Of a stretch of 64,000 nt of DNA, positions 1,391 to 63,492 are shown one piece after another. A program made the translations under genes and the position numbers. Origin of the DNA: Quercus robur (Eukaryota; Streptophyta; Magnoliopsida; Fagales; Fagaceae); NCBI RefSeq assembly GCF_932294415.1, contig NC_065536.1, positions 3,100,001 to 3,164,000 of the forward strand, given 5' to 3'. Position 1 is the first letter of the stretch; the number at the start of each line of letters is the position of its first letter. Below the pieces are notes generated by a model. The model had not been told where the DNA came from. It saw only the letters and a list, made by a program, of their open reading frames with translations, and searched no databases.

Positions 1391-1476
1391 AGCCATGCAA
1401 AGTGAAGAATGGCATTGCATATTTGCATGTCATACATACGTGTCTGTCCCATACCAACATTTCTCTCCTATAAATA
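1391..1476 (+). promoter_or_regulatory. Seed-storage promoter: legumin box with RY motif, second RY-like motif, TATA box
   Basis: AGCCATGCAAAGTGAAGAAT (from 1391) matches the legumin box, whose core is the RY motif CATGCA recognised by ABI3/FUS3-type B3 factors in embryos. A second RY-like element (TTTGCATGTCAT) begins at 1422. The TATA box TATAAATA is at 1469-1476, about 58 bp before the ATG. This arrangement predicts embryo-specific expression. Confidence 0.85.
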
Positions 1477-1533
1477 CCAGCATCTTCGAGTTGCCGCTTC
1501 ACTACTAAACTACTACCTCACAAAAAACCAACC

Positions 1534-8906: not shown

Positions 8907-9463
8907 ATTTATTTAAATAAAAATTATACATAAATGCACACATAAATTATTCAAATGATTCAGGGAGTGTTTAGTAATATTGTTCTAGTAATGTTGTTTG
9001 TATTTTTTGAAAATACATATAAATGAAAAAGTGTGGGAAAATACGTGTAATGTTGTTTAAAAATTGGAAATTGTTGCTCAAAATCACGTACCAAATGGCC
9101 CCTCATTCCTTAAAAGAGATTATCATAATAATCAAAAATCATATACACATATATGTATAATTAATTCGCTGCATTTTATATAATTATGTCAAGAATTTCA
9201 TATAACTATGTTTCATTTATCAGAAGAAAAAACCTTAAAAATTAGTATAAAGTAAGAAAAAAAAGAAAAGAAAACCCACCGTTTATGGAACAGTGTAATC
9301 TGCCACTGCATCCCTCTCTCTCTCTCACCTCTACGATCTACCACTGCTTCTCCATTGAAGCTCATAAGCTCCACCGAAACCGGACCCGAATTTTTAGCTG
9401 GATCTACCACCACAAAACTAATATCTGTCAAATTTGCTTCTTCTTTTTCTTCATCTTCAGGAA
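8907..9463 (+). other. Upstream region and leader of the first PPR gene
   Basis: Nothing recognisable to about 9250. From there the sequence resembles the region before the PPR gene at 17721 (CTCCATTGAAGCTC, CCGACCCGAATT-like words, then a pyrimidine tract ending CTTCAGG just before the ATG). The shared leader, and a similar one before 61745, shows that the copies were duplicated together with their upstream DNA. The CAG before the ATG could be a 5' UTR intron acceptor. Confidence 0.55.
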
Positions 9464-17580: not shown

Positions 17581-17720
17581 CATATCATTTTCTCTCACTA
17601 CTCACTACTGCTTCTATCTGCCACGGCTTTCTCCATTGAAGCTCCGGAGCTCCACTGAAATCCGACCCGAATTGGAAGAGCTGTCAGAACTGCTTCTTCT
17701 TCTTCTTCTTCTTCAGGGAA

Positions 17721-21591: not shown

Positions 21592-22550
21592 AAGAAAATA
21601 ATTTTTCTTATGTAGACGATTTGATTGGTGCTTAATTTGCTTGTGATTTTTTCTTTTTGGTTTCTGGGTTATGTAGAATTGGTGGTATATGTGGGGCCCA
21701 ACAATATATGGGCCAGACCCACTTGTTCACGGGAAGCTTTAAGGCCCAAGCCGAAGAAGGTGGTAGTCCAAGCTCATTAGCGCAAAGCACAAATGGGCCC
21801 AGAAAAGCGGCCGAGGACGATGCAGCCCTCGGCTGGCCCAAAGCTCTACCAAGAAAAGGGGGCAAAAGCGGCATAGGGACAATCTTAAAAGAAAATCTGA
21901 AATATCTAGGAAAGGCTGCCCTTACTGCCTTTCCCAGACTGAGTTTTGCACCTAACAAAGCCATATCCTTTAGCTTTATCAACTACTCCCAACAACTTGG
22001 GTTTGGGACTGATGGGACAAGTATCAGTCTTGGAAAGGTCGACCCTACACGTGGACGAAGGAAATTGAACGCATGCGAGTATAAAAGAAAAAATATGTAA
22101 CCTAAAGAAAGGGGGGAGTCCCACTAGGAAAAAGAGGGTTCCTGAGGTGAATACACCTGAGCCATGTAAGAACACCTTAACAAAAACCACCGCCGGGTAA
22201 ACACGACTTAGCCTTTCGATCCCACTCTCTACAAATGATATTGTATGGGCCCATTCACGTCCTGACGCAACAACTATTATGGTTCGTTTCGGAACGTGAC
22301 CCTACAATTGGCGCCGTCTGTGGGAAGGCTTGCATGTTAGCTCGAACGGTGGTGAAGTTGAGTTTCTGTCGAACAAGGGACTACGAGGGTGCCTTTATCA
22401 CCGGCAATACATTGTTGCTATTCCAACATAAGTTCCCACTAGGGGCTACGTTCCACGGTGTCAATGACATGGGCAAGTCTAGGGGCTTCAAACATCAGGC
22501 TAGCTTCCCTCACCTTATTTGAGGAGCTAAACCTTCGGAAGATCAATAAA

Positions 22551-23440
22551 TACAAAGAGAATAAAAGTTTTGGACAGAACCAAGGCCTTGTATGGTCCTC
22601 GGACCCAAGCCTCTGGGGAAACCAACTACTTAAAAAGGAGAATAAAAGTTTTGGACAGAACCAAGGCCTTGTATGGTCCTCGGACCCAAGCCTATGGGGA
22701 AACCAACTACTTACAAAGAGAATAAAAGTTTTGGACAGAACCAAGGCCTTGTATGGTCCTCGGACCCAAGCCTCTGGGGAAACCAACTACTTACAAAGAG
22801 AATAAAAGTTTTGGACAGAACCAAGGCCTTGTATGGTCCTCGGACCCAAGCCTCTGGGGAAACCAACTACTTAAAAAGACGATAAAAGTTTTGGACAGAA
22901 CCAAGGCCTTGTATGGTCCTCGGACCCAAGCCTTTGGGGAAACCAACTACTTAAAAAGGAGAATAAAAGTTTTGGACAGAACCAAGGCCTTGTATGGTCC
23001 TTGGACCCAAGCCTCTGGGGAAACCAACTACTTAAAAAGACAATACAAGTTTTGGACAGAACCAAGGCCTTGTGTGGTCCTCGGACCCAAGCCTCTGGGG
23101 AAACCAACTACTTAAAAAGGAGAATAAAAGTTTTGGACAGAACCAAGGCCTTGTATGGTTCTCGGACCCAAGCCTCTAGGGAAACCAACTACTTAAAAAG
23201 GAGAATAAAAGTTTTGGACAGAACCAAGGCCTTGTATGGTTCTCGGACCCAAGCCTCTGGGGAAACCAACTACTTAAAAAGGAGAATAAAAGTTTTGGAC
23301 AGAACCAAGGCCTTGTATGGTCCTCGGACCCAAGTCTCTGGGGAAACCAACTACTTACAAAGAGAATAAAAGTTTTGGACAGAACCAAGGCCTTGTATGG
23401 TCCTCGGACCCAAGCCTCTGGGGAAACCAACTACATAAAA
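22551..23440 (+). repeat. Eleven 80/81-bp tandem repeats inside the LTR element
   Basis: Units start at GTTTTGGACAG at 22567, 22648, 22728, 22808, 22888, 22969, 23049, 23130, 23211, 23292 and 23372. Each holds the palindrome CAAGGCCTTG and the hairpin-like GGTCCTCGGACC. Copies differ by only a few bases, pointing to recent amplification. Open frames through the array are a by-product of 81-bp units. Three looser relatives lie at about 24801-25045. Confidence 0.95.
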
Positions 23441-25045: not shown

Positions 25046-27225
25046 GGGGAAGGTTCTCGGCTCAGATACTGTAAAAGGTTAAAGCCAGTGTGTTAAAAAG
25101 ATGGCGAAACGACCCAACTTTCATTAACCTAAGGAAACTGTCCTTTTGGCGATTGAAACGTCCTCGGATAGTTATTTCCTACACTGTATCGAGCACTTAG
25201 TCCTCATCTTGGCTAATTTTAAGGTGAGTTTCGTTCCTCACTGGTCGGCTTTGCTATGTTAAATAATTTTATTAAAGTTATGGTGACACCTTTTTATTAA
25301 CAAATATTTCAGCCTTAGTTGTCATTAATTCAAATGCTATATTATTGTGCCGAGCAGCATGTGTAAACTTATAAAACATAAAAACAGAACATGCGAAATA
25401 AATGAATAGTAACTTTTATTAATATGGAAAATTGTTACAACGTACAAAGAAGGGCTTAAACAAGCCTCTACAAAAGGTATACTGCTGAAGCAGCAATAAC
25501 CACTGCAATACAGATAAGTAAACAGTCAGGTACCCTTTAAACTCGCCTTCAAAGCTTCTCCAATCTCTGCCTCAGTACTGCTCGTATCAGGAGAAGAACC
25601 TTTTTTAGAAAAAGATAAAGGAGAAGGAAGAAGAATTGGAACACATGGAAGCACTTCAGCAAGCTCTTGTCACCAAAGAGCACAAAGGATGAGGAAGATG
25701 GAGGATATGAGCAAGAGAAGGAGGAGAAGAAGAGGGAAGAAATGAAAAGAAGGAGAAAGGAGCAAAAGAGAGAGAAGGAAAAGCCCCAGAATGGAGCTGG
25801 TGGTGGAAAGAAGAAGAAAGAAAAGTAAAGGGTGGCACCAGTGAACGAAGAGAGGAAGAAGCAGGGGCATTTAGTCCCTGCCCCAGTCCTGACTCCTAGC
25901 ACACCGGTACCACATTAGATATGCTTATGAGAGAGCGGGTGGTGATGATGCTGTGTGTCCTCGGCTCAGTCACGTCGAAGGTGCGACGTGACGAGTTCCT
26001 GCTTCGGATTTTGGCTGAAAGGTAGGCAAGACAAATCTTAAGTCTCCGCCATCCTTGCCCCGACCGAGCCATCTCGAGCTTGGCCAGAACAAGGTATTTT
26101 TGGGAGGGAGAAGGTTTCTTCATCACCTATGACTGTGGCGAACGTATTACGAGTCGAGGTATAATCAGAGGGTAAATGTGAATTCTGGGAGGAATCTAAG
26201 GACTTCAGTTTTCTGGGGGATTAAGGGATTCACATATGAAAGAAACAACTCATGTCCACCCTCTTTATATAAGGGACGAAGAGGATGGCATTAAATGTGT
26301 TCAGGTCTTCAAGGAAATCTGCCAGCAAGAATGCGCCTGTTCCGCTCCCCCACGTTATCAGTAGCCATTGAATTTGAGAGGTCTCGTGAAGGGAAAACAT
26401 TAAAGACCTACTTCGGGTAGCCAAACAGACAGAACGTATAAATGCTAAATCAAGAAGGATATCTCGTAGATCGGAGCGTTTCCTAGGCATTCGGAGAATT
26501 GCCAACGCCAGGGAAGGGTCGAATTAACTGAGCCGTAATAAAGGCTTGAAGTTACCAAAACCCCCCTCTCCAACCAAGAGGTCGGACAGCAGGGTTTTGA
26601 GGGGCTATTGTGGGGCCCAACAATATATGGGCCAGACCCACTTGTTCACGGGAAGCTTTAAGGCCCAAGCCGAAGAAGGTGGTAGTCCAAGCTCATTAGT
26701 GCAAAGCACAAATGGGCCCAGAAAAGCGGCCGAGGACGGTGCAGCCCTCAGCTGGCCCAAAGCTCCACCAAGAAAAGGGGGCAAAAGCGGCATAGGGACA
26801 ATCTTAAAAGAAAATCTGAAATATCTAGGAAAGGCTGCCCTTACTGCCTTTCCCAGACTGAGTTTTGCACCTAACAGAGCCATATCCTTTAGCTTTATCA
26901 ACTACTCCCAACGACTTGGGTTTAGGACTGATGGGACAAGTATCAGTCTTGGAAAGGTCGATCCTACACGTGGACGAAGGAAATTGAACGCATGGGAGTA
27001 TAAAAGAAAAAATATGTAACCTAAAGAAAGGGGGGAGTCCCACTAGGAAAAAGAGGGTTCCTGAGGTGAATACACCTGAGCCATGTAAGAACACCTTAAC
27101 AAAAACCACCGCCGGGTAAACACGACTTAGCCTTTCGATCCCACTCTCTACAAATGATATTGTATGGGCCCATTCACGTCCTGACGCAACAACTATTATG
27201 GTTCGTTTCGGAACGTGACCCTACA

Positions 27226-30922: not shown

Positions 30923-33900
30923 TCTAAGCTCCGTTACATTTGAACGCTAATTAAGTGAATGAATAAGTTGAGTTTGAAATGCTCTGCATGGCCAGAGTAG
31001 AAGGTTGTAAATCAAATAAAGATTTTTTACTGATATCTCACACACATTGATTTGGCTCAAAATAATCAACCTAAGGCAAAGTTTCTACTTGGAATTCAGC
31101 AAAAAGCTTTTTAGGAATAGTTTACACTAAATTCACCTGCAATCTAGTCATCATATGGCTACAACTCTGACATAGAAAAACCACCATAGCAGGTTGCATA
31201 TTCTAATAACTCGAGATTTTGGAAAGAGAGAGATCCGTGTAATACAAATACAACATGTCCGTTCTAAACCCTGATCTGCCTCACAACAGATTGTTATATT
31301 TTCTATTTTATGCCATATACTTTTAGATCCCAATAATTGAATTTGTTCCCATTGAGGTCGCATAAGGAAGGAAAAATATAATACTGGGCCACCCAATGCT
31401 TTTCAGAACAGATGCCAAGCAAATTGTTTGCTTCTTTTGATCTTATTATCCAACATTAGGAATAAGTATGATAGAATTCAGCATCATCAAAGTTACTTTT
31501 GAAATAGAAACACATTATTTGACATTATGTGACATCAAAACCAATGACATTCGTAATTGAACTCAGCAACTCACTCGTATAAAGCAGATTCTCTGTATTT
31601 CAGAGCAAAATCTATGCCAAGTTTTGCTTCTGCAGATGTAGAAGTGACGTCTAACATCCATGCTGCCGGATTGTAATTATTTCTAATCTTTGGAACTCGA
31701 GGAATACTCTGTCAGAATATAAGTTGAGTAACAAGAAGATTTATCCACTTAACTAGATGAAGAAAATAGTATTACTAAAAGAAGATGAAAGAGGAAAATG
31801 CAGAGGATAAATATATTGTTACAGGAAACAGACCTCAAAATATTCTATAACGCTACTTGAATGCTCTCCAAGTTGTCCAGAGTAAATCAAGTGTCCACCA
31901 GTTTTTAGAAGAATTAACTGCAAAAGCAAGAGAAGCATCAGATAAATAACTCTTCAAGATACAATACTATCCGACACTAGGTCTCATATTCTCTTTTTGG
32001 GTATCAGGTTCGAATGGAGCTTATATAATTATAATCTGGTTGCTCCACAATGGGGTGCATTATTTTCTCCATTGTAGCCAAAAGTAAAACCTCTTAGGCC
32101 TTTATTTAGCTCTCCAGTACTTATGCATTTATTCCTAAGATTAATAGCACTCCTAGAAGCAATGGAGCACCGCTTCTTGTTTTCAAAAGTAAATTCTATT
32201 TACAATTTTAATTTTAAAATGTTCAAAAAATAGTATTTTTTTTTTACCTCATCAAATGCTTCAAATAGGTCAATACTTGGTTGGTGGATGGTACAAACAA
32301 TTGTTCTTCCCGTATCAGCTGCATTCTTCACAGCTCGCATGACAATTGCAGCTGCTCTTGCATCCAATCCAGTTGTTGGTTCATCCATGAAGATAATAGA
32401 GGGGTTTGCAACAAGCTCCACAGCTATTGTAAGCCGCTTGCGCTGCTCATTTGATAGACCAGTAACGCCAGGTATGCCTACTAAAGCATCCTTTATTCCA
32501 TCAAGCTCAATGGTCTCCAGGACTTCATTTACAAATTCCTGCAAGACATGCCACAGCAGATCTGACAAATTATTATCTCAATGACGAATATAAAACAAAA
32601 TCTTTGATTGATGTCAATGCCTGGAGAACTTACAGCTTTAGTTTTTGCGTCTATCTGAGGAGACAGTCGTAGCCAAGCAGAAAATATCACTGATTCTTCA
32701 ACTGTGATTTGAGGAGAATGTATATCTGTTTGTTCACAATAACCTGACACCCTAGCAAATGTTTCTTGGACCTTGGGATACCCTCCAATCTTTATTTGCC
32801 CTTCAATATAGCCACTAGTCTTTCTTCCTGCTAGGACATCTAGAAGAGTTGTTTTCCCAGCTCCACTGACACCCATCAATGCTGTAAGAACGCCAGGCCT
32901 CAATGCACCCATAATATCAGAAAGAATTTGGAGTTTTTTGTTGGTGAATCCATTTTCTCTCATTTCCTGGGAGCCAAAAATAAAAGATAAAGACAGGAAT
33001 TAACATAATAGTGCACAGCTATAATTATAGCAACCACCAGAAACTTATACGAAGTTAATTGTGATACCAAGGGGGTGTCAACATAGTACTGCACATCTTG
33101 AAACGCTACTGTTAAGGGTGTAAAAGGTAAGACCATCCTACCTGTTAATTAAGACAGGAAACTCATTAAAACACTGGGGAAATATTGCCAAACCTTAATT
33201 TGGTTCAATACTAGTCTGTGGAGAGGTATGATCTGAAGAATAAGCAGAAGAACAATAAAATTGATAAAACCTTTCTTTGGTTCAATACTAGTCAGTGGAG
33301 GAGAATTTCTAGACTTTTTGTCCTGATGGGTACCATCATGTGAATCTTCACTTCCTCGTATTTCGGAAAGCTTTTCATGTGAGATAATAGCACGAGATGA
33401 TCCAGGAGCTGAATGTTTATTAAATGAGGATGAATTAACATCTAGCTATTGTTTCACTGCTGTTTAAGTTAAAATATAATAAAAATTAAGACAAACTTAC
33501 ACTTCAAGAAGCTTAAGGCCAAGATGTATCCAATGTTGAATACTATTGTGAATCCAAACAGGGCACCCAGTGATATCCAATAAAGATATCCGTCAAAGTT
33601 TAACCCTCGGCTTTTAAGTATTTCTTGCCCTATCGTAGTGTTTGTGGAAAGCATCTACAGGCAAGAAAGGAAATTAAACTTAGTAGGTAAGACCATCTAT
33701 TTACTCAGGATGTTAATGTCAAAGTTAATTATGGAAATGGCAGACAATTAGAAGGTTTATAGCAGGATTATTGGTGCACATGCCTCACATCTGAAATTAG
33801 TGGCATAGTAGCTAGTATAAGCACATAATCTGTAGTCTACAAGGTTTGGTTGTAATTGAAGTATTCACTACTTTAGTTGCTAGTGTATAAGGCCAGCTAA

Positions 33901-36900
33901 GATTTGTTACAATAAATAAGTGATATTACAAGAAAATCTATTGAACTTTCAGTGCTTTAGAAGTAATGAAGCCCCAATACAACATTATGACTTACTGGCT
34001 AATATTCTAAAAGAAGGCAAAAGTGAGTGGAAGTAATTAGTGAAGAAGTATTTTTGAATTTGCATAAGGTAACAAAAAATTGGCTAAGATTAGAAGAGGC
34101 AGAAGTGGGTGGATGGAGATAGTGAAGAAGGATTTGAATTTCCACACTCCAAGAAAGGTCTGGCCCATCAACTTTATATGTTGTAACAGGAAATAAGATT
34201 TATATAGTTGGGACAAAAGTTTGAGATTCAAATTAAAATAACATACGTAAATAAAGACACTAATAATTAGTGAGGACATTTGAGAATTTATCTGATTGGA
34301 TTTCATTGTTGATCTCTTTGGAAGAGCCATAAAATCACTAGGTCTGCCCCTTGTTCTTGAGCAGTTGTATCAGCATAAAATAGACTGCATTTTTTAGTAT
34401 GCAATGAGAGACTCACCTTTTGCCATCGTGGGGCAAGAAATTCATTCAAAGAAAGGCCTATTTCTCCATATGTCAGGGGAGAAACCCAGAAACCCCACTT
34501 CAACCAAACAGGCATAGAAGCTGAAACAAGAAGCTGAAACAAAAATCACAGCTGATCCTCTCAACTGGTTATATTAGAATGAGATTGGAGAAGAGGTATG
34601 ATAACCTTACGTTGAGTGATAATGAAGCCACCAAATACAAACTGTAAAAATACTGCCAAACTACCAGCAGTCATGGCAGAAGTATGAGTCCGGAAGACTG
34701 CAGCCACGAAACGAAACATCGATAATGAAGATAAGTGCACCGCAAAAAGAAGAATGAACTGGCAGAAGAACCTGAAAACAAAGAAAATTATTAGAGTCAT
34801 AACAAAAAGAAACTGAGTCTGCTTCTGCTTCTGCACTTACATTCCAAATTTTGGACAGCTATATAAATTAAAGGCCAACTTCATTTATTTTTACTAGACA
34901 AGAAAGATAAAGTAAACATTGATTTCTATAAAAAAAAAAAAAAAGGAGATAAAAATCTTTAAAACAAGAACACTAATTGATGAACCAAAAATACGGGGAA
35001 ATGCACAATTAAATTTACAAATTTTCATGTCAAGTTCACCTTTTGGCCTCAGGACTATATCCAATTACATAATAAGTAAGAGATGTCCAAACTAGAGATT
35101 CCACAAATGAAAGTGGAACCTTTAAAACACTTGCTGGGATTGCATATGCCCAAGCTGGGTAAAAACAGAATTCTTTTTGTTTGTAGAATACTTCAAGCCT
35201 TTGAAGAGTCATGGCCAACTCTGGAAGTCCGTCAACAAGAAGTATGTTAAGAGAATAAAACAGGGCACCCATATAGTAATTTGCATGAAGAACATCAATA
35301 TCCATCTGAGTCTGTAAAAATACAGTCATTGTGATACATGCAATGACAAAAAGCTGCAGATAGAAGAGACCAAAGCGAGTTTCAGATTTGCAGGGCCTTT
35401 GACAAAGGAAATAAAGAACATGACTGCAATGTGAAGAATGAGAATCGGTTTTAATACAAAAGTACATTTCCTAACCTGAGTTGTTTTGAAGATATATATG
35501 AAAGAATTCCTTTTCATGAGAAGAAGCTCCCTTGATGCACATGCTCTAAAAAGTTCCCATTTAGAAAGAGAATACACACTAAAGGAAAGAGCGTCCTTAT
35601 GGCTTTGGGATTTATCATATGGCTCCGAGAGCTCCTCATCTAGCTTCTTTCCATAAGGAGATTCCTTGAACTTCCTAGAGAACATATCAACTGAAACATA
35701 ACTGTAAGGTACTTCCATGTGATACCAGTACTGTGCTTGATCTTTTCTAGAGATAACCTGCATAAAGATAGGACAAAGTTGTTCTTTTAAAGAAACAAAA
35801 GCTTATAAAAAGAAAAACAAATATAAGGCTTTTATGCACTTACCTCTTGGACAAAATCAGCAATCCCTTTCCTCTCAGGACACCTAAAACCCCAATCCTC
35901 AAAATATTCTAGAACATGATCACGTGGACCATGATACACAATCTTCCCTTCTGACATTAAAATAAGGTCATCAAAAAGATCAAAGGTTTCTGGTGCTGGC
36001 TGAAGAAGTGAAACCAGTACAGTAGCATCTGTGATATGCGCCATCTGCTGAAGACAAGTAACAATTTGAAATGCAGTGGAACTGTCTAAACCATTCGTTA
36101 TTTCATCCATAAACAGGGCTTTTGTAGGACCTACAATCATCTCCCCTGCCAGATTTTAATTTAATTCCTTGTGGTCAAAATTGTAAGCTGAAATTGGGAT
36201 TTAGCTATCTCAGTAACACTAGTAAATAACTGAACAACTATCATTCTATTATTCAAACTACCTGTAGTCAATCTTTTTTTCTGACCACCAGAGATACCTC
36301 TCCTCATGGCATTTCCAACTAGAGTGTCAGCGCAGATATCAAGTGCAAGAATCTGAGAAGCCAAGGCAGCAATACACATAAACTGGTAAGGCATTCATCC
36401 GTATAGGAATTACAAGATACAAGCTTTTCTTTCAGCTTAGTTAAAAGAGAGTGACCTTTAATATGTAATCTGTTTGAAGGGTTCCTTTTAGTCCTTTGAC
36501 AGAAATTGCCTGTCCGAGAAAATGGTAAGATTAATATAGCAAAATATAACTTATGAATACCATCAAGAGGTAGGAACAAAAGAATATCATAGAATGACAT
36601 GACTGTGGTGCACAATGCTTTCAATGAACTCGCATAATAATTATTGTACCTAAAGATATTAGAGTTTTGTAACTTCAATCAATAGCTGCACTAACTTTAC
36701 TATGCCACATTGCTTTACTTTGACTTGCATGATAATGCACACGTAGAACCTAGGATTGCAATGTTACATGTTCTAATAAAGGAACATGTTCAATTACATG
36801 GTGTGCACTATCAAATTTGCAAACAAGGAGTATGTTGAAACAAAGAGACAGAGAAATTACAGAATAAAACTATTATGAAAGAATCTGCATATTCTCTGTA

Positions 36901-44520: not shown

Positions 44521-45145
44521 TCTTGAGGTAAAGGCGCACTTTGGAAAAAAATATTAATGGGTTTATGTTTTATAACCTTTTCTATCATAGCATTAGCATT
44601 GGGGTGTAAAAACCCCCTAGTTGCTATTTTATCAACCAAGACACTAAAATAGAGTATTACCCGGGAATGGATATGAAAATTTTTTTAGCATTTGGGAACA
44701 GTAAAGTTGTATATATACAAGTATACAATCCTATTGTTCATGGGTTGTAAAAATAAAAACTAATATTTTAATGGAGTGAGAGAAGAAGAGAGGAAAAGAG
44801 GGAGAGAGATGGGAGAGAAGAGAGAGAATTGATTTGTTTATATTGTTTTTTGGTATAGTTTATATTATTTTAATAAGTTGTATGTAAAAATAGAAACTTG
44901 GATTTTGGGTGAGTTGTAAAATAAGATGGTAAAATAGATAAAGTATGTTTTGAGGATGTATAATAGACACTTTTTTATATCATCGGATGATAAGTGTAGG
45001 GTTGCCAAAGCCAAACATCAAAGTTTTTGAAGGTGGCAACCCCAATATTAATTCCTAAAGTGCAAAGGCTATTGGAAAAATAAATGTGGATTGATTTGGG
45101 ACATTTTTTTTAAAAAAAAAAATTAATGTATATGTTAGTGTATGG
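44521..45145. other. Intergenic DNA
   Basis: A/T-rich, with a purine tract at 44775-44830. No gene seen. Confidence 0.5.
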
Positions 45146-46136
45146 TTGTGCAACAAAATGTATTTTTAGTGACGAAAAAATTCGTCACTAAAAGTCCAGT
45201 TTTTTGTCACTAAGAACCTTTAGTGACGAAATTGGACTTTTAGTGACAAAACTCATTTCATCACTGTAGCCCCGTCACTAAAAGTCCTGGTGACGAAAAA
45301 TTTCGTCACTAAAAGTCTGATTTGATTTTTTTAAAAAAAACTTTTAGTGATGAAAATCTTTCGTCACTAAATGTTTTCCTCACTAAAAACACCATTCATT
45401 TTCGTCACTAAAACTATGTTCGGGTATATATAGTGACGAAAAAGTTCATCACTAAAACTATTTTTAAGAAAATCCAGGCACAAATAGCGATGAAAATTTT
45501 CATCACTAAAACCATTTCTTACAAAATTTTGCTACATTTAGCGACGAAATATTTCGTCACTAAAACAATGTTTTGTTGCTATATTTGTGACGATAAAATT
45601 CGTCGCTAAAACTTATTTTTATTTTTTATTTTTTTATGGCTTTGATATTAACCTGTAACCTGTCATTTTATTATTAAAACCTCACATTTGAATAACACAT
45701 TTATAAAAAAAAATCCATACATTCCACAAGTAAAAAATAAAACAAATATCAAATTCAAACTCATTACATACAATAATTGTTTGCAATACAAACAATAATT
45801 TAAGATGTTTTATAACAATACAAAAATGGTAGCATAATATAATTAGAACTAACGGAAGATATCCTCATATGTCTTCAAGTAATGCCAAAAGTAAATTCCT
45901 AAAAGCCACCAATAAGAAATCTGCACAAATATAAAAACAATATTACATTAAAATCATAAAGTAAAAACATTAATTATGTTATAAGAAACATTTCTAACAA
46001 CTCATTAAGAGTAACCACACCAATAAATTAAAATCACAACTCCTAATGTATAAGTTGTAGAAAGCAAATATAGATTTTCAAGTGTAATACAATACAATTA
46101 GTTTCAAATAATGTATCAAAAAAAGTATATGAATTT

Positions 46137-46620
46137 AAACCACCTTATAACACCATGCAAGCCACCCACTTGCTCCAACACAACAATCTACCACAAAACG
46201 AATCAACAACATACAATATATAATGCTTACAAGTATTGAAAACACTTAAAATATTTCCTTCACATGTAAATCAACAATACCCAATCACAATTCAAAAGAA
46301 TGAAAAACACTCCCAATATTAGTTTAAACCACCTTATAATACCATGCAAACCACTTGCTTGCTCTAACACAACAACCCACTACAAAACTAATTTCCAACA
46401 TTACAAGTATAGAGTTTTACAAGTATTTAAATAAAATAAAATACTATTCATCACATTTAATCAACTATACTCAGTCACATTTGCAAGAATTGAAAAACAC
46501 TCTCAATACATATTTGAACCACCTTATAATACCATGCAAGCCACCCGCTTGCTCCAACATAAAATACCACCACAAATCCAATTTCCAATATCACAAGTAT
46601 AGAGTTTTATAAGTTTTTAA
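46137..46620. repeat. About 190-bp tandem repeat, two and a half units
   Basis: AACCACCTTATAA(C/T)ACCATGC starts units at 46137, 46326 and 46516; each continues through GCTTGCTC-AACA, a TTTCCAA-like part and ACAAGTAT. It is non-coding and lies in the left interior of the CACTA element. Confidence 0.85.
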
Positions 46621-47770
46621 CTAAAATTTACTTACTTTGCTCAAGCTACAATAAATTAAGTAAAAACAAATTATAGCAGCAGCAAATTAAGATACAGTAA
46701 AACAATCCAATAGTTATAGCAGCTGCACACGTACAAAAGAAAAATTATACAAAGTAAAAATTATAAAAAACCAAAATCAGTAAAAATCATTATTATTATT
46801 ATTATTATTTGATAAGACATACATACTATGTTGATTAGTCTGCTTCTTTTTTTAGTCATCTTCTAGCTTTGGAGTTTATGTCAGACATTTTTCATCTTCT
46901 AGTAGGCACACATGATTACGTTACCTTTTGGTCAATCTCTTGTAGCTCCTACCAATTTTTAATAATAATAATAATAATAATTTTTATTATTATACAAAGT
47001 AAAAATAATAACAATAATATTCTGTTGGCAATCATCAATATGCGTGAACCCATCCCTTCTCAAGGTAGAATGACTACAATTTGTATGTATTATTTATTTT
47101 AGATTGGGAGCTTTAAATATGCCAGCCTGTCCACTGTCCACCTATAACCTATTCTAAAACCCGCATTTTCTCTTAACTCATAGCATAGCTACTCTTCTGT
47201 TTTCACCTGTATCAGCACTACATTACTCTAATAACATGCCTCCAATCCAAAAATGGAAATTTCCAGAGTCATGAAGAACTCTAAAATCATAATTTCCATT
47301 TACTTTCAGATATTGGATAAGAGTTTATATATTTGCACACAATTGTTTTATTTGTTCAGAAAAATAGGATGAGGGTTTATTTATCTAGTACTCCACTACA
47401 TACATTTGGTATTGTTCTTGTTGGATTATATCTTTAAGGTTTATATATATAATTTTATCTATTTCTATTCTGCAACAGTTGGACATATCATTAAATTCTT
47501 GATCTGACATAGGATAAACAATAAAAGAAAATTGCAATAAAGAAAAAAAAATTATAAAAAAAAACTTGGAGTCGACACCCAAGGTTGCATGAAGTTGACA
47601 CCAAGGAAGATAGAAAGCCTAGGAGTTAGCACCAAACTACTGGAAAAAAAATCCAAAAGAAAATTTATTAATCAAACAAAACTGTAAACTTTGTAGTACA
47701 ATAGTGTATTTATATATGAAGACTACTATAAATACAAAAAATAACCTTGACTCTAGCAAATGAATAAAAT
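46621..47770. other. CACTA interior without gene signal
   Basis: A/T-rich with ATT/ATA trinucleotide runs at 46791-46810 and 46961-46990. No transposase or captured exon recognised. Confidence 0.5.
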
Positions 47771-47783
47771 TCAAATGAATTCT

Positions 47784-48274
47784 TTTTTTTTTGATAGGTA
47801 ATATAAGAACTATTATTAATAAATAAAAGATGAAAAATACAAGATGTTCATGATGATGAACAATAAGAAACAGAAGAAACAAACAGCCAAACAAAGAAGA
47901 GGGAAATCAAATAGAAAAACTAAGGGAAGACAAAAACTCTGGAAGAGACGAAGACTCAGTAAAACCCCAACAACGAGACCACTCAAAAAGACTACGATGG
48001 CTTAAAACCTTCAACTCATCCAACGTCTTCTCCTTGTTCTCAAAGGAGCGACGATTCCGTTCCAACCAAACAGTCCACATTATGCACCCTGGAATCAAAT
48101 TCCAAATATTTGAGTTGTGCTTCCCGAGCCACTGATGCCAACAAGACAACAATCCCGCCACCGATCCTGGCATAACCCAATGAATACCATAAGCCTGAAG
48201 CATGAAGGTCCATAAGGTATGAGTAACAGGACAGTGAAGGAGGAGATGGTCAACCGACTCCCCATACATTATGG
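47784..48274 (-). mobile_element. 5'-truncated L1-type LINE with 13-bp target duplication
   Basis: TCAAATGAATTCT flanks both sides (47771-47783 and 48275-48287). The insert ends on the minus strand in an A-tract (poly-T on plus at 47782-47792). The ORF at 47907-48278 reads SVDHLLLHCPVTHTLWTFML and CIMWTVWLERNRRSFENKEK, the zinc-binding tail that follows reverse transcriptase in plant LINEs. Only this C-terminal piece is present, as expected from incomplete target-primed reverse transcription. It sits inside the CACTA element and so is younger than it. Confidence 0.9.
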
Positions 48275-48891
48275 TCAAATGAATTCTAAAATAAAACTAA
48301 ATTAAAATAAAATTATCTTCACATTTCCAGCATCATTCTCCCCCTAGTGGAGACAACACTTTCTATTCACATGGTAACTAAAAAAGGCACAACAAGAATT
48401 TTCCAATTCTGTCAAAGACAAAGTTTTGGCTACATACTTCTACGTGATTCAACTGATTGCTTCGCTGGACACTGCCAAGCCCTCAATCCAATTCTAGAGA
48501 ATTGTTAAAACTTGAGACACCATCACTAGGTCCTTAAGTTTACCTGACCCATTCAGGAAAATTTCAGCCCATTTCAATTAGCCCAATAATTTACCCAACC
48601 GATTTAAAACAGCAAAGGCAAAACCTTCACCCTTCCCAAAAAAAATAAAATAAAATCAAGCTTCTCATCCAACATGGCCCATTAAAAAGATAAATAAATA
48701 AAGTAAAAAAATCAACCTGGTGTAATTATTTTATAATTATTTTTTTGTTTGAAAAAAAAGGCCTAACCCATCACTTATGCCTAAGCTAGAGTCCTCCTTA
48801 AGCCCTTTTAATCCAAGGTTCGTGATCCATCTAGTGTTGCCATAAGCTATACTCAATGGGGTCAACTTTCTCCCACACCAGGAGAGTTGAT

Positions 48892-49300
48892 GTAGACACT
48901 ATATTAATGCTGATTGATTCCATTAGTCCAGATTATGGGATTTGAATTTTAATTTGACCATTTTAAGGGATTTGATTGCTAGCTAAATTATGATTTTATT
49001 TCCTTCCTTATCTGATGTAATCCAGTACCCTATTTAAAGGCCCAAAGTAATCTGATAATAAGATGAATATATAGATTAGAGATTTTCTATCTCTAGCTTT
49101 GTGTCGATTTTAAGCACTCTTAGATGGTGAAGCCTAGGGATTTCAGGCGGAAGAATCTAGTTGGTGAAGCCTAGAATTTTTCTTGTTATTCTCTTTTCCC
49201 TTATTTCTACTTCTTGCCCTTTGACCTGTATCACTTGGCTATGTACTTTCAATCTAGCTAGCTAGCTGCCTGTTTCACCCCTAAGCCTTGGACATTTGGT
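48892..49300 (+). mobile_element. Possible LTR-like fragment
   Basis: Starts TGATGTAGACACTATATT and has a TATTTAAAGGCCC box followed by an R-like region with AATAAGATGAAT, then a pyrimidine-rich stretch. The layout is LTR-like, but the 3' border and target duplication were not found. Low confidence. Confidence 0.25.
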
Positions 49301-49409
49301 GTAGGTATTTCCAATTTTCAGCATCTTTTATTATTAATATTCTATCAAGCTGAACTATAGATCAAGTTGTTAAAGCCTATATGATATTTGCATAAATCAG
49401 TAGATTTTT

Positions 49410-50290
49410 CTCTATGGTTTTATATAAAGGAAGAGTTTGTTAGCCTTAAAAGTTTTCAGATTGAACATCAGAAACTGTAAAGCACACAAAGACGCATATT
49501 TATAGTCTCTTAGAACATCAATGACTTCTTTAACCAAAGACAATAAAGACTCAACTTCCTGGATGACCTGTGAATTTTGTGGCAATTTACTTGGTGGTGA
49601 TGCAACTGGCACTGTAGGATTATGAAAAAAAGAGGAGACTTAAGTCAATTCAACAGGTCATTCTGAATCTCTGATAGTTAATTAGAAACTTTAGTTTTGA
49701 AAAAATGAATGTAATAAGGTGCACCAGGTAATAAGGATGGTGTTATTTCTGGCATATTTGGGTGAACTGCAGGTGGATTTTGTCCCACTTTCCTTGGTGG
49801 TGATGCAACGGTTACTGTATTTCGTAAAAAGGGGTGGGGGGAGCAACTTAGAACATTCCAACCACAGATTTAGCAAAGGGGTGAAATTTGAGAAGTACTT
49901 GTCACATACCTGGAGTAATTGGTTCTAGGATGGGAGCCTTATTATCTGGTGCATTGCTTTGATGAGAGCTTGGTGACAAAGTTCCTGGCACACCTGGGTG
50001 GCTGACTAGTGAGTTTTGTGGCAAATTCCTAGAAGTTGCTACTAGAATTTTACATTAAGACAAAGCAGCTAATTCAGAACCTATTTCAACTGGGAATACA
50101 GCACAACAAAAGCCTAATAAGTTTTGTACCTGGAGCAGCAAGTGGCATTCATGCAGCAGTCTTCTTAACTGGTGAAGGACTTAGCAGTATGGATGGTGCA
50201 TGTCCTTGAATAGTCAGAGTTGGAGGAGTTGTTCTATATGGTGGCGATACAGTTGGAGTGCTTGGTGACAAGGATGGTACAAGCATTCCT
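49410..50290 (-). pseudogene. Proline/serine-rich exon fragments, source uncertain
   Basis: Minus-strand segments read VPVASPPSKLPQNSQV (about 49559-49612), VTVASPPRKVGQNPP (about 49770-49815), PGTLSPSSHQSNAPDNKAP (about 49925-49985, donor after 49910) and PSLSPSTPTVSPPY (about 50230-50285). The recurring (V)ASPP-KLPQNS theme resembles the proline-rich outer part of ALE2-type receptor-like kinases; that match is from memory and weak. No kinase domain is present. The pieces look like exons of one captured gene or a chimera and lie within the CACTA element. Confidence 0.35.
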
Positions 50291-51967
50291 CCTTAAGAGC
50301 ACAAGCATGTTTGATCAAATAAATAGAAAAATTAATTTGATTTGGGGTGTCATAAAATTCAGCAAGATGAACTTCCTTCAAATGTTCATGTTCAAGTTCA
50401 TGGACATTTTCGTTAGGCTCAAGCATTCCTTGTTCAAAGTCATTTGGGCATGGCATCTGCAATTACAACAAGTGTACACTAATTCAATTCAAAAGCTAAC
50501 CAGAACATGAGGTTTAAGCCTTAAAGTGATGCAAGATGGACACGACCTCAAAATAAATATGAACCATAATAATCTTTAACATCAAACTATATGGGAAACC
50601 TTGAATTGACGAACAAACCAATGTTATTCCAGCAGATGAGGCAACCTATTTGATGCCACAAACGAGTATCAAGGGGTTAATCCAAATAAGTATAAACTCT
50701 ATAATGAACCTAGGCCCCATTATGCCATGATATAAGTACCCAATTCAATATAATTTTCAATTATTTACAGTGTGAACTTCAACATGGAAGTTTCTTTTAG
50801 TTTTGTAGGTACTTTACAGGAGCAAAACAACATATAGGACTTTTGATGCCTTTTTGAACAGGGTCTTTTGGCTAGATCTAAAAATGTCTTTTTTTTTAAC
50901 AAAAAAAAAAAGATTTTATTCCAGTAAAACTACATCATGATCAATACAAAACAAAAGATAGCCTAAAGAATTACAAGTAAAAGAGACTGAACTAGCAAAC
51001 TCTACCACTGTCACTGAGACCTAGAAAAATTGGCCATTCATAGAGTAATTTAAGAAAAGAAAGTTTCATTCGACTGAACTTCTGAAATTTTTGACATTTT
51101 CAAAACTTCCACTTCCTAAACATTTCATGTTATTTCTACTATAAGGCAGAATGAACTTTTTGGCAAGCCTTTGAATAGGGGGAGATTGCAGTTAAATAGA
51201 TATAAAGAGAACAAGCTTGGAGTAGCCAGCCATGAATAACAAAATATTATATCACTCACCATCATATAAAATTTCTTTAAAAGGGGAAAGCCTTTGAGAA
51301 TAGCTATCACCTTCAAGGCGTCAAATTCCATTCTTTGAGAGAAACACAGCTCCAAAGTTTCAACGTTGCTGAAGATACCAATGCTCTTAGGTATGCAGAA
51401 CTACACAAAGAAATACACGATTAGTCTTTTACTACAACTAATAAATCTTCACTTCATAAAGAAGTGACAACAATTTTTTCATTTTTTTCACGTACCAACT
51501 TAGTTGAAATAGAAACATGTAGCATCCTCAGATTAGGGAGATCTTTTGCAAGCTGTTGGAAAATATAATGCATGTCTCTTTCACGGTATTACACCGAAAC
51601 ACACTTCTTCTAGCTTAGGGACATTAAGGAAAGAAGTTTTAACCAAAAGTAAATTAGAATATTCAAATCTAAGGAGATTCATAACTGACAGTTCAATTTC
51701 CTCCACCTCAAAGCAAAAGCAAATTGTTAAAATTCTCAAACGAACTAATGAGCTGAAAATCCTCAATTTAAGGGGAAGGTAACACCCATCCATTAACAAA
51801 GTGATAAGGCTCAAACAACAAGTACAGATGGTCTGTACATCAGATAGACCTAAACGTACATTCACTAAATTGAGAGTTGTTAAGTTGCAGAATTTGGTGA
51901 ACAAATTAGGTCCCAAACTAGTAACACTGCCAAAACATGAGACAACAACAGGTGGACAATCATGCAT
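50291..51967 (-). pseudogene. Captured F-box/FBD-LRR gene fragment
   Basis: F-box/FBD/LRR proteins are substrate receptors of SCF ubiquitin ligases. Minus-strand pieces: 51967-51496 with LRR-type FCNLTTLNLVNVRL, VPKLEEVCFG and LPNLRMLHVSISTKL (donor at 51495); 51400-51260 with FSNVETLELCFSQRMEFDAL and GFPLLKKFYMM (donor at 51259); 50456-50291 with MPCPNDFEQGMLEPN, EHEHLKEVHLAEFYDTPNQI and YLIKHACAL, the FBD tail. The N-terminal F-box is missing, and a one-base slip separates FGVIP from the RERDMHYIFQQLAKDL continuation near 51580. The FBD exon runs without an intron into a proline-rich segment at about 50290, a likely fusion point. Confidence 0.75.
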
Positions 51968-52915
51968 CCATCAAATAAAACCAATACATATTGAAAAAAA
52001 AAAAAAAAATCCCAAATTCTCAGCATATACTCCTCCAAAACTAAAACCACTCATCAGGGGAAGACTTCAATTTTAAGAATACAATTTGTTTTTGCAAAAT
52101 GTAAGTTTCAAGCACATTCCACCAAAAATAAATTAGATATAAAAAAACTGACACATGCATCAACACAGATTAACTAAAAATTCAATAAATCAACCAAAAC
52201 CATTACGTTTTTAATTGTATAGCTCGTAATGCCATTCGAATTAGAACTCAGTAGCCAAAACAACATTCTCAGTAACAAATTTTCAATTTCAAATCAAAAC
52301 CCAAAATTTCCCAATCAAATGAAAAATGAACCTTCTCAGTAACAAATTTTCAATTTCACAGTAACGAATCTGAAATAACTAACCTCCCTGGATCTTGATC
52401 GTCGAGGAAGAGATCCTCTTGAACACTGTGAACGCACACGATCGCGAAGTCGATCATTAACGCCGAGATGAGGAACGATCTGATGGTGGTGAGGAAAACG
52501 ACGGCAACAGTTAAGAGCGAGAGACCGATCTCGGAATCAAAACAGAAAGCGGAGAGTGAAGTGCTGTGGTTGGAGATTTAAGGCAGTCATCGGACCTGAG
52601 GGAAGGTGGCGCTCTGGGCCCAGACGCTGCCGTTGTGGCCGATGATCGACGTTTGAGGGGAGAAGGGGAGAAAGGAGATCGGCGAAGGGTCTGGCGGCAG
52701 CGTCGGCATCGGCGTCAGTGTTGGCATTGGTGTCGGCTGAGGTTGTGAGGGGAAGGGAGGGTTGGAAGGCGAAGGGTCGGAAGGCGAACGGTCAGCAGCT
52801 GACGTTTGGGTTTGTGAAAGAAAGGAAGAAAATAGTTTGTGTTTGGGAGGGAAGTGACCAAAAAAGAGGTGGGAAGTGATATTTGCTGAAATGGGTTTAA
52901 GGGAATTAGAAACCC
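51968..52915. other. CACTA right interior, partly G/C-rich
   Basis: 52380-52800 is G/C-rich, with CGATCGCGAAGTCGATC and short Asp/Pro-rich or Pro-Thr repeat-like frames on minus (PTPMPTLTPMPTLPP). It resembles a plant 5' UTR/first-exon region, perhaps the promoter end of a captured gene, but no protein family is recognised. Confidence 0.4.
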
Positions 52916-53387
52916 CTTTAGTGACGAAGCTCAATTTTGTCACTAAAGAACTTAGATTTTGTTAAGATTTTTAGAGAGGAATTTCAGATTTCGTCGCTAT
53001 AGCATACTTTTAGTGACGAATTGTGATTTCGTCACTAAAACAATGAAATGAAGAACCATGATTATTTTTAGTGACGATTATTTTTCGTCGCTAATTCTTC
53101 CTTATAGAGACGAAATGATTTTCGTCACTAATACTATCCATAGCAATAGCTATAGCGACGAAATATTCCGTCGCTATAGATTAATTAAGTTCCTGCCAAA
53201 TTTTTCCTTGTCAGCGCCTATTTTTCAAATTACAATAGAAACGAAAATTAGTTTTCGTCGCTAAATGTTATAATTTTTTTACATTATTAGTGACGAAATT
53301 CGTATTTCGTTACTAAATCTATATTTTTAGTGACAAAAAATATTTCCTCACTAATTTTCGTCACTAAAAATACATTTTGTTGTAGTG

Positions 53388-54840
53388 GTGACGAGTAATC
53401 ACACCATCGTATGGTGTACTTTCATGCATGCAATAATTCTCTTTAGTCGATAGTGTTATTTCACAAATTATTTCACAAACATAGTATTGTTTGCAACTTT
53501 TTTTTTTTAATTTATTTTTTGAGGTTAAAAGGCAGAAAGGAATATGCGACCTTTTGGATTTGTTATATATGTTTATGGAGAAGCCACTAAACTTGGAGGG
53601 CCACAATTAAGAAATTTAGTAAGTTCATTAATTAACATGGGATTAAAGGGAACTTAGGAACGTATAATTAAGACTGAGGAAAGGGATGTAGAATACAAGA
53701 ATCAATGACGCAAAGAAATTAATGTGATTCAGCCACTAAAATTTACATTCACATCACAAAAAGTCGAAACGTGTCATTTTTCGTTCATTTGATTGATGAT
53801 CACACAGAATAAAGGAATGAATGTTTATAAGGAGACTAACACGTAAAGTCTTGTTTAATTTAAATCGGTAAAACCTATTGCACACACATCCATATACAAT
53901 TGAAATCATGAATTGGATGCATGATTTTTCCAATTGTTTTCACCTACGTACAGACATGTGTGCAAGTTGGAATGTGTAATTAACACCATCCAATTTAAAT
54001 CATTTGAGACTTCATTTAATTATGGGGGTGTGTGTTGTTTTAACCAACAATGGCTTTTAAGTTTCTTTAGAATAGCTTGGATTCTTGAGGATATTAAGTT
54101 TATTTATGATCGTTTTGATTTCCTTTGATAACATATTTTTACATTGTAATTGTGTTGCTCTAACTCTTGTAAGTATTGCAGAAAAGAATGAGGAGGTCAA
54201 TATGCAATGTGGTGTGCAAAAGAAATCGCTTGGATTCTTGAGGATATTAAGTTTATTTGTGATATTTTTGTTTTGTATGTATTTGTGTTACTTTTTTTTT
54301 TTTTTTGTTACATTTTTTTCTTCTTTTTTTTGAAACTTATTGTCATATATTCATGATTATTAATAGTAAAATTGGCCATGATATTTTGAAAATATTCCAT
54401 TCCAAAACCGGCTAAACTGCACCTTGTATATCACAATGCACTACATATGTGACTGCAAAACTGAGGTGTGGTGTAATGATAGTTTTAGCCAAATTATACC
54501 GCAAAGTACAATACTAAAAATGACCCAAAACTACACCACGAAAAGCTCTAATTATTCCTATTCCCATATAATAAGCATTATAATTTACTAAACTTGCTTT
54601 AGACTATAAAGCTCTTGAATCTTGATCAATTGACTTCTATTTGACTGTATTTTAATCATTTATTTTTGTATTATTTTCATTATATTCTTTCAATAAATCT
54701 TAAAAATAGTGTAAAAATTGAAATTTTGAAACCAGGGTAAAAGCCTCCATTTTAAGCCACAGATTTTCAGAATAAGTTGTTTATATATTATATTATATTG
54801 TATTTTATATATAGTTAATAATTATCTTTAATTTCTTAAA
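53388..54840. other. Intergenic DNA with a 40-bp direct repeat
   Basis: CTTGGATTCTTGAGGATATT occurs at about 54077 and 54230, each followed by AAGTTTATTT. Otherwise A/T-rich and without gene signal. Confidence 0.55.
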
Positions 54841-55040
54841 AAAAAAAAAAAAGACACCCCCACTTGTGTGACTCAAAACTCAGAAAGTGTGAAGCACAGA
54901 CATAGTGGCTGCATACTCTTGTTCACTCTATCGTGTCTCTCTCTAAAACTCGGCGCTTCTTCGATCCGATCTCTCATCTCTTATCCCCACTACACCGAAA
55001 CCCATCTCCATCTGCTGCTGCTTCTTTTTCTGCAGAGAAA

Positions 55041-56855
55041 ATGGGTACATGTGTTGCTAATAAATCAAGAAACCCACTTGTTTTTGTTACTGTTAGAGTA
55101 AGGCAGTTTATCCCATTTCATGCTCTTTATTCTACTCTACCTCCTTCTACTACAAGTAGTAGTAATGGTAGAGAGTACTTGGAAATCCCATATCAGAATC
55201 GCAATCAGTTGTTGAAATCTGTGATAGATCACCGCAAATCTCGAACCTTTAGGAATCTTGACCATGGCTTAGTCCTGTTTGATAAAATGCTTCAGTTAAG
55301 CCCTTTGCCTTCCATTGTGGATTTTACTCAATTTTTTGGTGCCATTGCAAGAATGAAGCATTACTCGGTAGTCGTTACTCTAATTGGACAAATGGGATCA
55401 TTAGGAATTGCTCCCAATGATTATACTCTCTCTGTTTTGATTAACTGCTTTTGCCAATTGAACCGAGTAGATTTGGGTTCTTTGTCTTGGCAACAATTTT
55501 GAAACTTGGTTATCACCCGAATCGTATAACTCTAAACGCTCTTGTCAAGGGGCTCTGTCTTCAAGGTAACATTGCTGGAGCTGTCAGGTTGGTAGAAGAT
55601 ATGGAGAAGAATGGTTATCAACCTAATGCATTTACCTGTGGAACGTTACTAAATGGTCTGTGTAAGATTGGTGAGACTGATAAGGCTATTAGGTTGCTTA
55701 GGAAGATGGAAGAAGGGAATTTTGAGCTTGATTTGACTGCGTATAGCACAATCATTGATGGTTTATGCAAGGACAAATTGGTATCTGAGGCATTGAACTT
55801 TTTGTCTGAGATGATGAGGAAAGGCATTCATCCAAACCTTATCGTTTACAATTTCTTAATTCACGGCCTATGTAATTTTGGCTGGTGGAGGGAGGTTACT
55901 ACCTTGTTGAATGAGATGGTGCAAAAGATCTTGCCAGGTGTCCAAACCTTCAACATATTGGTGGACGCACTTTGCAAAGAGGGGAAGCTGACCGAGGCAA
56001 AAGAAGTTTTTGACGCGATGATTCAAAGAGGCATTCAACCTAACACAGTCACTTATGGCTCTTTGATTGATGGTTACTGTTTGCAAAACAAAATGAATAA
56101 TGCTATCAAAACATTTAATTTGATGGTTGAGAAAGGTTGGTCGCCTAATGTGTATAGTTATACCATATTGATCAATGGATATTGCAAAAATAAAAGGATT
56201 GATGATGCAATGCATCTCTTCCATGAAATGTCCAACGAGGGTTTGATTCCTAATGTTGTGACTTATAGCACTCTTATAGGTGGCTTTTACCGAGTGCAAA
56301 GACCTCAAGCTGCACTAGAGCTATTCCATAAGATGAAAGCTTGTGGCCAAGACCTAGATCTCCAAACTTATGCCATCTTGTTAGATGGCCTTTGTAAGAA
56401 CAAACAAATTGATGAGGCAATGGCAGTGTTTCAAGAGATGGAATCCAAAAGGATGGACCATACTATTGTGATTTATAACATTTTAATTGAAGGTTTGTTT
56501 AATGTTGGGAAACTTAAGAATGCAAGAGAAATATTTTATAGTCTTCCTACCAAAGCATTGCGGCCTAATATTTGGACTTACACTATTATGATCAAAGGGT
56601 TTTTCAAAAGATGAAGCGGTTGAGTTGCTTGAGAAAATGGATGGGAATTGTTGTTTGCCTAATGATTGCACATATAACACAATCATCCAAGGGTTACTGT
56701 AACATAATGAGACATCGAGGGCAATGAAATATCTCCACATAATAATTGAGAAGGGTTTCTCAGCAAATGCAACCACTGCAACCATGTTTATTGACTTGTT
56801 GTCAACTAAGCAAGTAGATAAAAACATTCAAGAATTACTTAAGAAGCCTAAATGA
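55041..56855 (+). pseudogene. RFL-type PPR pseudogene (third copy)
   Basis: Aligns over its full length with the intact gene at 17721. ATG at 55041 (MGTCVANKSRNP), basic N-terminus, then PPR motifs. A T is missing in GATTT(T)GGGTTC near 55471, which ends the first frame at 55502; the second frame carries PPR motifs to 56614 (ending GFFKR), where a short deletion (GGACTAATA-type sequence of the paralogue) shifts the frame again, and a stop follows in GGGTTACTGTAACATAATG. The family ending is recognisable to 56855. The leader shares pyrimidine-rich sequence with the other copies. At least three defects make a complete protein impossible. Confidence 0.95.
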
Positions 56856-61466: not shown

Positions 61467-61744
61467 AATTGCGTGATGATGCCCTCTTTTTGGGCTTGTC
61501 TGGTTGGGCCTGAACCAACCAGAACATATTTGGGTTCGGATCTGCTTTTACGCGGGTTATATTTGTAGGATTAGGACTAGAAAGTTGGAACCGTTGAAAC
61601 GATCTGCAACTGCCACTGCCACTTGCTCAGTCTCAATCTCGGTCTCAGACTCAGACTCTGAGTCTCACAGCTTTGGAGCTCCAATGAAACCAAAAAATCC
61701 AACCCGAATGGTTAGCTGAAACCAGATTTGGTCATCTTCTTGAA

Positions 61745-63492
61745 ATGGGTACGGCTTCTACTATATCATCAAGCTCTCTTGTTTCTATATTCAACTATTT
61801 TCAGTATTAGAATAAGCAGGGTTCCATTTCATGCTCTTAGTCTAGCTCAGTCTCAAACTAATAGTAGTGCTAGTGTTAATGTGGATACCCATGATTCTAA
61901 TCATAGTCAGTTGTTGAAATCCATGGGAGATAAGTGTAAAGGTGGAAGCTTTAGGAATGTTGATGATGCCTTAGACCTGTTTGATAAAATGCTTCACTTA
62001 AGCCCTCTGCCTTCCTTTGTGGATTTTACTCTATTGTTGGGTGTCATTGCAAGAATGAAGCATTACTCACTAGTGATTAGTCTAATTAGAGATATGGAGT
62101 CACTGAAAATCTCTCCTGATTTTTATACTCTGAATACTTTGATTAATTGCTTCAGCCATCTGAACCGTGTAGATTTCGGGTTCTCTGTCTTGGCTAGACT
62201 TTTCAAACTTGGTTATCAGCCGGACCGTATAACTCTAAACACTCTTGTCAAGGGGCTGTGTCTTCAAGGTAACGTTGTTGGGGCTGTGAGGTTGGTAGAT
62301 GAAATGGAGAAGAAAGGGTATGAACCTAATGCAGTTACTTGTGGAACCATAGTAAACGGTTTGTGTAAGATTGGTGAGATTGATGCGGCTATTAGGTTGC
62401 TCAGGAAGATGGGAAAAGGGAATTTTGAACTTGATGTGGTGGTTTAGAGCACAATTATTGACAATTTATGTAAGTATAAGTTGGTAACTGAATCTTTGAA
62501 TTTTTTATCTGAAATGAAGGGTAAAGACATTCAGCCAGATCTTGTAACTTACAATTCCTTGTTAATTCAAGGCCTATGTAATTTTGGCCGGTGGAGGGAG
62601 GCTACTGCTTTGTTGAATGAGATGACACAAAGGAAGATTGTGCCAGATGTGAAAACCTTCAACATATTGGTGGACACTCTTTGCAAAGAGGGGATGTTGA
62701 CAGAGGCAAAAGAAGTTTTTGATGTGATGATTCAAAGAGCCATTGAGCCTAACACAATCATTTATAATTCTTTAATCAATGGTTATTGTTTACAAAGCAT
62801 AATGGATGGTGCAATCAAAGCATTTAATATGATGGTTGAGAGGGGTTGTTCACTTGATGTGTTTAGTTATAACATATTGATGAATGGTTATTGCAAAAAT
62901 AAAAGAATTGATGAGGCAATGCACCTCTTTCATAAAATGTCCAACAAGGGAGTGACCACTGATGTTGTGACTTACAACACTCTTATAGGTAGTTTTTGTC
63001 GAGTGGAGAGACCACAGGGTGCACTGAAGCTATTCCGTATGATGAGAGCTCGTGGCCAACATCCAGATGTCCAAACCTACGCCGTCTTGTTAGATGGTTT
63101 ATTTAAGAACAAAAAATTTGTTGAGGCAATGGCATTGTTTCAAGAGATGGAAGACAACAAGCTCCACCACAATCCTGTGATTTTCAACATCTTGATTGAT
63201 GGTTTGTGTAATGCCGAAGAAATTACAATTGCATGAAAAATCTTCTATTGTCTTCCCACCAAAGGGTTGCAACATGATGTTTGGACTCATAATATAATGA
63301 TCAAAGGAGGGGCTGATAGATGAAGCGAGTGAGCTGCTTAGGAAAATGGATGGGCATGTTTGTCCACCTAATGAGTGCACATATAACACAATAATCCAAG
63401 GGTTACTAAGACATAATGAGACGTCAAGGGCAATGAAATATCTCCATATAATGGTTAAGAAGGGTTTCTCAACAAATGCTTCAAAAGTCTAG
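61745..63492 (+). pseudogene. RFL-type PPR pseudogene (fourth copy)
   Basis: Starts at the conserved MGTAST position (61745), but that frame stops after 21 codons (SIFNYFQY). The main PPR frame runs 61728-62447 without a usable early ATG and ends at a TAG where the paralogues read VLYSTIID (here VV-stop-STIID). It continues in the same frame, with one extra Leu codon (SLLIQGLCNFG), to a TGA at 63234-63236; a deletion before the ELL-KMDG motif and a shortened tail (to TAG 63490-63492) follow. Clear PPR motifs include VVTYNTLIGSFCRVERPQGA. Leader and 3' flank match the other copies. It has more defects than the third copy. Confidence 0.95.

Follow-up and report, generated by a model that had tools for sequence, protein, structure and literature searches.

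The question raised by this locus is whether two arrays of palindromic repeats, which bracket gene-like sequences in a 64-kb window of the Quercus robur genome, are the two ends of one transposable element that has taken up host DNA, or separate insertions on either side of a native gene. The window comprises the whole stretch analysed (64,000 nucleotides, positions 3,100,001 to 3,164,000 of contig NC_065536.1, assembly GCF_932294415.1), and all coordinates are counted from its first base. The observations described below suggest, with a probability of roughly 85%, that positions 45151-53387 (8,237 bp, delimited by inverted ends and arrays and not assigned to a strand) are a single non-autonomous element of the CACTA (En/Spm) superfamily, of the Pack-CACTA type, with gene fragments as its cargo. 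The region is read as one element because the two ends are alike, have the orientation expected of a single insertion and are flanked by a candidate 3-bp target-site duplication. A CACTA element with gene fragments, as the original prediction had proposed, is the best reading of the region; the predicted 8.2-kb array-bracketed unit is real, but its left edge lies at 45151 and not at 45164.

The left terminal inverted repeat (45151-45178, plus strand) and the right one (53355-53387, minus strand, located by the inverted match and a terminus search) lie at the outer edges of the arrays, and 45151-45178 is identical to the inverted sequence of 53355-53382 at 28/28 bp. The right repeat includes the only exact copy of CACTACAACAAAA in the window; when up to two mismatches are allowed, eight matches are found against 4.88 expected, one of them internal (50099-50111). 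The left repeat begins with CAACAAAA, the five bases CACTA being absent, and matches the right end from the sixth base on. The trinucleotide GTG stands immediately outside the left repeat (45148-45150) and adjoins the right terminus (53388-53390), and these two copies form the candidate target-site duplication. The simplest reading of the left end is that CACTA has been lost beside an intact 3-bp duplication. The right end would be the 5' end of the element.

The left array (45165-45610) contains 17 and the right array (52917-53368) 14 of the 8-bp core half-sites, that is, 31 of the 35 present in the window; the 7,259-bp interval that separates the arrays has one and the rest of the window three, and 300 shuffles of each array gave means of 0.03 and 0.12. 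Many of the half-sites pair, reverse with forward, into hairpins. The motif TTTCGTC(A/G)CTAAA (TTTCGTCRCTAAA), with at most one mismatch, has 27 matches, all of them inside the two arrays and none in the rest of the window, whereas 100 shuffles of the window contain 0.17 on average and 2 at most. Six array stretches, chosen by hand and one of them nested in another, were each more stable upon folding than 200/200 shuffles, while 16/200 shuffles equalled the single internal stretch that served as control. The dense direct and inverted subterminal repeats that characterize the CACTA superfamily are therefore present, and the hairpin arrays that had been predicted at both ends stand.

These same arrays could also be two separate insertions resembling miniature inverted-repeat transposable elements (MITEs), derived from CACTA elements and flanking a native, decayed locus with FBD and leucine-rich repeat (LRR) sequences. 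Inside the left array, a TTTTGTTG at 45571-45578 is similar to the terminal repeat and forms part of an inverted pair (I1; 46 bp, 83%) whose other member is 45150-45195. Together with the imperfect left end, it permits 45151-45578 to be read as a small MITE; TTTTGTTG arises in no more than 79/5000 letter shuffles of the left array. The flanks of such a MITE do not match, with GTG before 45151 and CTA after 45578, whereas GTG flanks the element as a whole. The left array continues to 45610, beyond the edge of the putative MITE; there is no exact inner terminus, the internal two-mismatch match at 50099-50111 being at chance level; and the LRR/FBD sequence lacks its N-terminal part. Two independent insertions are thus an unlikely explanation. 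With a single core half-site between the arrays, that interval preserves no clear sign of former inner ends. In a model presented in a review (PMC13317346), neighboring elements with complementary terminal deletions merge into one hybrid; the evidence here speaks neither for nor against this model, because no clear inner ends are left, with the exception of the internal TTTTGTTG.

A single element of this kind would be expected to carry host coding sequence in place of a transposase. There are 58 stop-to-stop open reading frames (ORFs) of at least 45 amino acids in 45000-53500, of which 55 were scanned against Pfam, the other three lying wholly or mostly outside the element. No transposase domain, Tnp2 included, is found among the 20 Pfam families matched by these 55 ORFs at E<=0.5, as the original prediction had it; a Tnp2 transposase is needed only of autonomous CACTA members. 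The combination that defines Pack-CACTA elements, host coding sequence inside and no transposase, is thus found here, with LRR and FBD matches that lie near the Pfam cut-offs. All other Pfam matches, except one to zf-RVT described below, were attributed to chance, even those to Defensin_beta (8.4e-4) and PRA1 (1e-3).

One part of the cargo is an LRR/FBD piece on the minus strand with three exons and two phase-0 GT-AG introns. The first exon (51496-51970, its start approximate) contains an ORF, 51970-51581, with matches to two models for the LRRs found in FBD/F-box proteins: PF23622 (E 5.3e-6; 26.5 bits, cut-off 26.9) and PF24758 (E 4.3e-4; 20.5 bits, cut-off 27). This frame closes with a stop at 51581, beyond which another frame continues in a similar manner, as read by eye over an unscored stretch, up to the donor GTACGT at 51495; a frameshift near 51590 would account for both. 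The second LRR exon (51260-51400, 47 codons) is preceded by AG and followed by GTGAGT, and alone has no Pfam match at E<=1. The FBD exon (50290-50456, its 3' limit approximate) starts at 50456 after TTGCAG, and the frame stays open to 50214; the ORF 50462-50214 scores 22.3 bits against the Pfam FBD cut-off of 22, and 22 when joined with the second exon. The joined piece also matches positions 230-324 of PF23622 (24.2 bits, below the cut-off), collinear with the match of the first exon to positions 90-185. When the LRR pieces were compared with the PDB, two entries matched, both weakly (E 0.086 and E 0.56).

The piece therefore seems to be a stretch of a single gene, collinear and with its introns, whose N-terminal part is missing. 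The predicted F-box/FBD-LRR exons on the minus strand were thus recovered in their FBD and LRR portions, but no F-box domain is found in the scanned ORFs. An intact native F-box/FBD-LRR gene was considered and rejected, as the F-box and the N-terminal part are absent and the LRR frame closes at 51581. The view that a native F-box locus is simply flanked by the arrays is disfavored on similar grounds, for the piece without its N-terminal part and with its seeming frameshift is not intact.

To the left of the FBD exon, on the same strand, lie the proline-rich mini-exons (49540-50292). They run through 50292-50130, 50041-49910, 49814-49725 and from 49611 leftward (the first start and the last end are approximate), have phase-1 introns and contain two repeats (D10 and D14). 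The four exons join in a single frame with one stop, whereas each of the other two frames has seven stops, and exons 2-4 share a start resembling V-ASPP-KLPQNS. The proline-rich exons of the original prediction are upheld by this joined frame. The encoded sequence may resemble the proline-rich parts of ALE2-type receptor kinases. The proline-rich piece overlaps or abuts the FBD exon within about 50214-50300, but the two do not share a frame, and their introns differ in phase. Because of these differences, the two pieces probably came from two donor genes, as far as can be judged from the sequence.

Several points weigh against the proposed element and its cargo. The left terminus is without CACTA, and the GTG duplication exists only if the 5-bp loss at that end is assumed; moreover, a 3-bp flank match is expected by chance about once in 64 cases and is accordingly weak evidence. 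The Pfam support for the LRR/FBD piece is thin, with PF23622 and PF24758 below their cut-offs and FBD barely at its own, and no Pfam family matches the proline-rich mini-exons. The exon boundaries were set by visual inspection, at GT and AG dinucleotides. Introns of mixed phase may occur within one gene, which leaves the two donors unproven. The low CpG content of the cargo (0.27) was discarded as a sign of decay, since the nearby pentatricopeptide repeat (PPR) genes are about as low, with values of 0.28-0.37.

Between the cargo and the right array lies a block rich in G/C and CpG (52390-52870, minus strand), which adjoins the array at a distance of 517-997 bp from the right terminus and ends on the left at GTTAGT, a candidate donor site. 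The G/C-rich stretch that had been noted as promoter-like is real (GC 0.545, observed/expected CpG ratio 1.22); its status as cargo is less certain, as it may instead belong to the element itself, as its 5' region. At a width of 490 bp, its CpG ratio is 1.17; of 1097 overlapping windows taken from outside the element, 0.3% have a ratio at least as high, and none attains the ratios of the arrays, 1.59 and 1.97. In maize En-1, exon 1 occupies positions 300-550 and is 82% GC, according to the relevant section of PMC2613891, so that a GC-rich block near the 5' end is common to both elements. The likeness is loose, with 54.5% GC here and a greater distance from the terminus. On balance, the position of the block just inside the array, close to that of the En-1 exon, and the high CpG that it shares with the arrays favor the element's own 5' region, a putative control region or first exon. 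A captured host promoter with its first exon, which would be compatible with a Pack-CACTA element, is a possible but less probable origin; it would explain why the block differs in composition from the remaining interior and has a candidate donor at its edge, and it gains from the looseness of the En-1 comparison and from soybean Tgmt*, described in the same section of PMC2613891 as being without such a block.

Other sequences occur inside the element. Positions 47784-48274 (minus strand) are bounded by a 13-bp duplication (47771-47783 and 48275-48287), have a T run at the left edge (A on their own strand) and contain an ORF that matches zf-RVT weakly (E 0.12; 13.5 bits, cut-off 27.5). They may represent the truncated tail of a sequence similar to a long interspersed nuclear element, which either was inserted into the element or arrived with the captured DNA. 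A repeat scan found a tandem repeat with a period of 190 bp and 2.6 copies at 46133-46627. An uncontrolled scan yielded one candidate solo long terminal repeat, which has a 6-bp match and spans 48835-49251; it is not claimed.

No further copy of the element ends or arrays is present in the window, and when the flanking sequences were compared with the remainder of the window in search of an empty site, only PPR paralogs and short local repeats emerged. Exact copies of the terminus in viral contigs and of the palindrome in prokaryotic genome contigs number zero, which is uninformative for plants. Four related PPR genes lie on the plus strand of the window, at 9422-11134, 17640-19529, 54906-56614 and 61716-63236; presumably they resemble restorer-of-fertility genes. 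The gene at 54906, in which alone the PPR domains were checked, has 79.8-85.8% DNA identity to the other three over the aligned stretches, and the genes at 54906 and 61716 are each split into two ORFs. A gene similar to those of legumin-like seed storage proteins (1474-4262, plus strand) is represented by three ORFs with Cupin_1 matches. An 80-bp tandem repeat of eleven copies (22554-23440) is flanked by near-identical ORFs at 21636-22301 on its left and 26528-27220 on its right, which are perhaps two retrotransposon ends. Exons of an ABC transporter, which we assume to be of the PDR/ABCG type, occupy 32200-35802 on the minus strand, with an ABC_tran match in 32529-32999 and none at E 0.01 in 35326-35802.

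CACTA elements that have captured pieces of genes are already known, and the element described here is one more example. The closest parallel is Tgm-Express1 of soybean, a CACTA element in which five host-gene fragments are spliced into chimeric transcripts, as described in part of PMC1947982, and which likewise carries exonic and intronic pieces of unrelated host genes. Tgm-Express1 differs in its length (5.7 kb), its five other donors, its location in an intron and its demonstrated transcripts. Pack-CACTA elements of Arabidopsis and maize, as outlined in PMC8903248, are also non-autonomous, with CACTACAA termini and gene fragments that in maize often come from more than one locus; they were found as clusters of copies, whereas one copy is known here, with its left CACTA missing. 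The cargo set had been called distinctive in the original prediction, which does not hold as a novelty, as CACTA elements with fragments of several unrelated genes are already described in these two sources. No claim is made that FBD cargo is new to the literature. Captured gene fragments are also described for grapevine Cactavine-5 (PMC2528002) and for Chenopodium CACTA elements (PMC8978399); the examples described there retain transposase-coding sequence and carry other genes. The Chenopodium elements have gene fragments in the 5' region and satellite arrays in the 3' region, which is the order seen here if the right end is the 5' end. In maize En-1/Spm the subterminal repeats, bound by TNPA, and the GC-rich first exon near the 5' end are similar, but that element is autonomous and has a different repeat motif and an exon 1 that is much richer in GC (82%) and closer to the end.

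By combining these comparisons with the features of the locus, it is possible to propose a history of the element. The coding core would have been replaced by genomic DNA with introns, one part taken from an LRR/FBD gene and another probably from a different gene that encodes the proline-rich sequence. Mobilization would have occurred in trans by the proteins of an autonomous relative: by analogy with En/Spm, a TnpA-like protein would bind the palindromic arrays and a TnpD-like enzyme would cut the ends. A transcript would start in the CpG-rich block and run leftward through the captured exons, giving a chimeric and probably non-coding RNA. With its cargo decayed and its left CACTA lost, the element should now be immobilized.

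It is doubtful, though compatible with this history, that the captured exons are expressed and act, either as a truncated LRR/FBD product or through small RNAs directed against the donor gene. The splice sites are canonical and in phase, and in soybean the transcripts of a comparable element include its exons in spliced form, according to PMC1947982; the apparent frameshift, the out-of-frame junction and the stop in the proline-rich part argue otherwise. It is more speculative still, and very improbable, that the CpG-rich 5' region drives a spliced LRR-FBD-proline-rich RNA of two unrelated genes, and that this RNA controls the donor FBD-LRR family by way of small RNAs. The oak element would be of value as one case bearing on the way in which CACTA elements take up DNA; it carries exons whose splice signals are still in phase and which probably derive from two unrelated genes.

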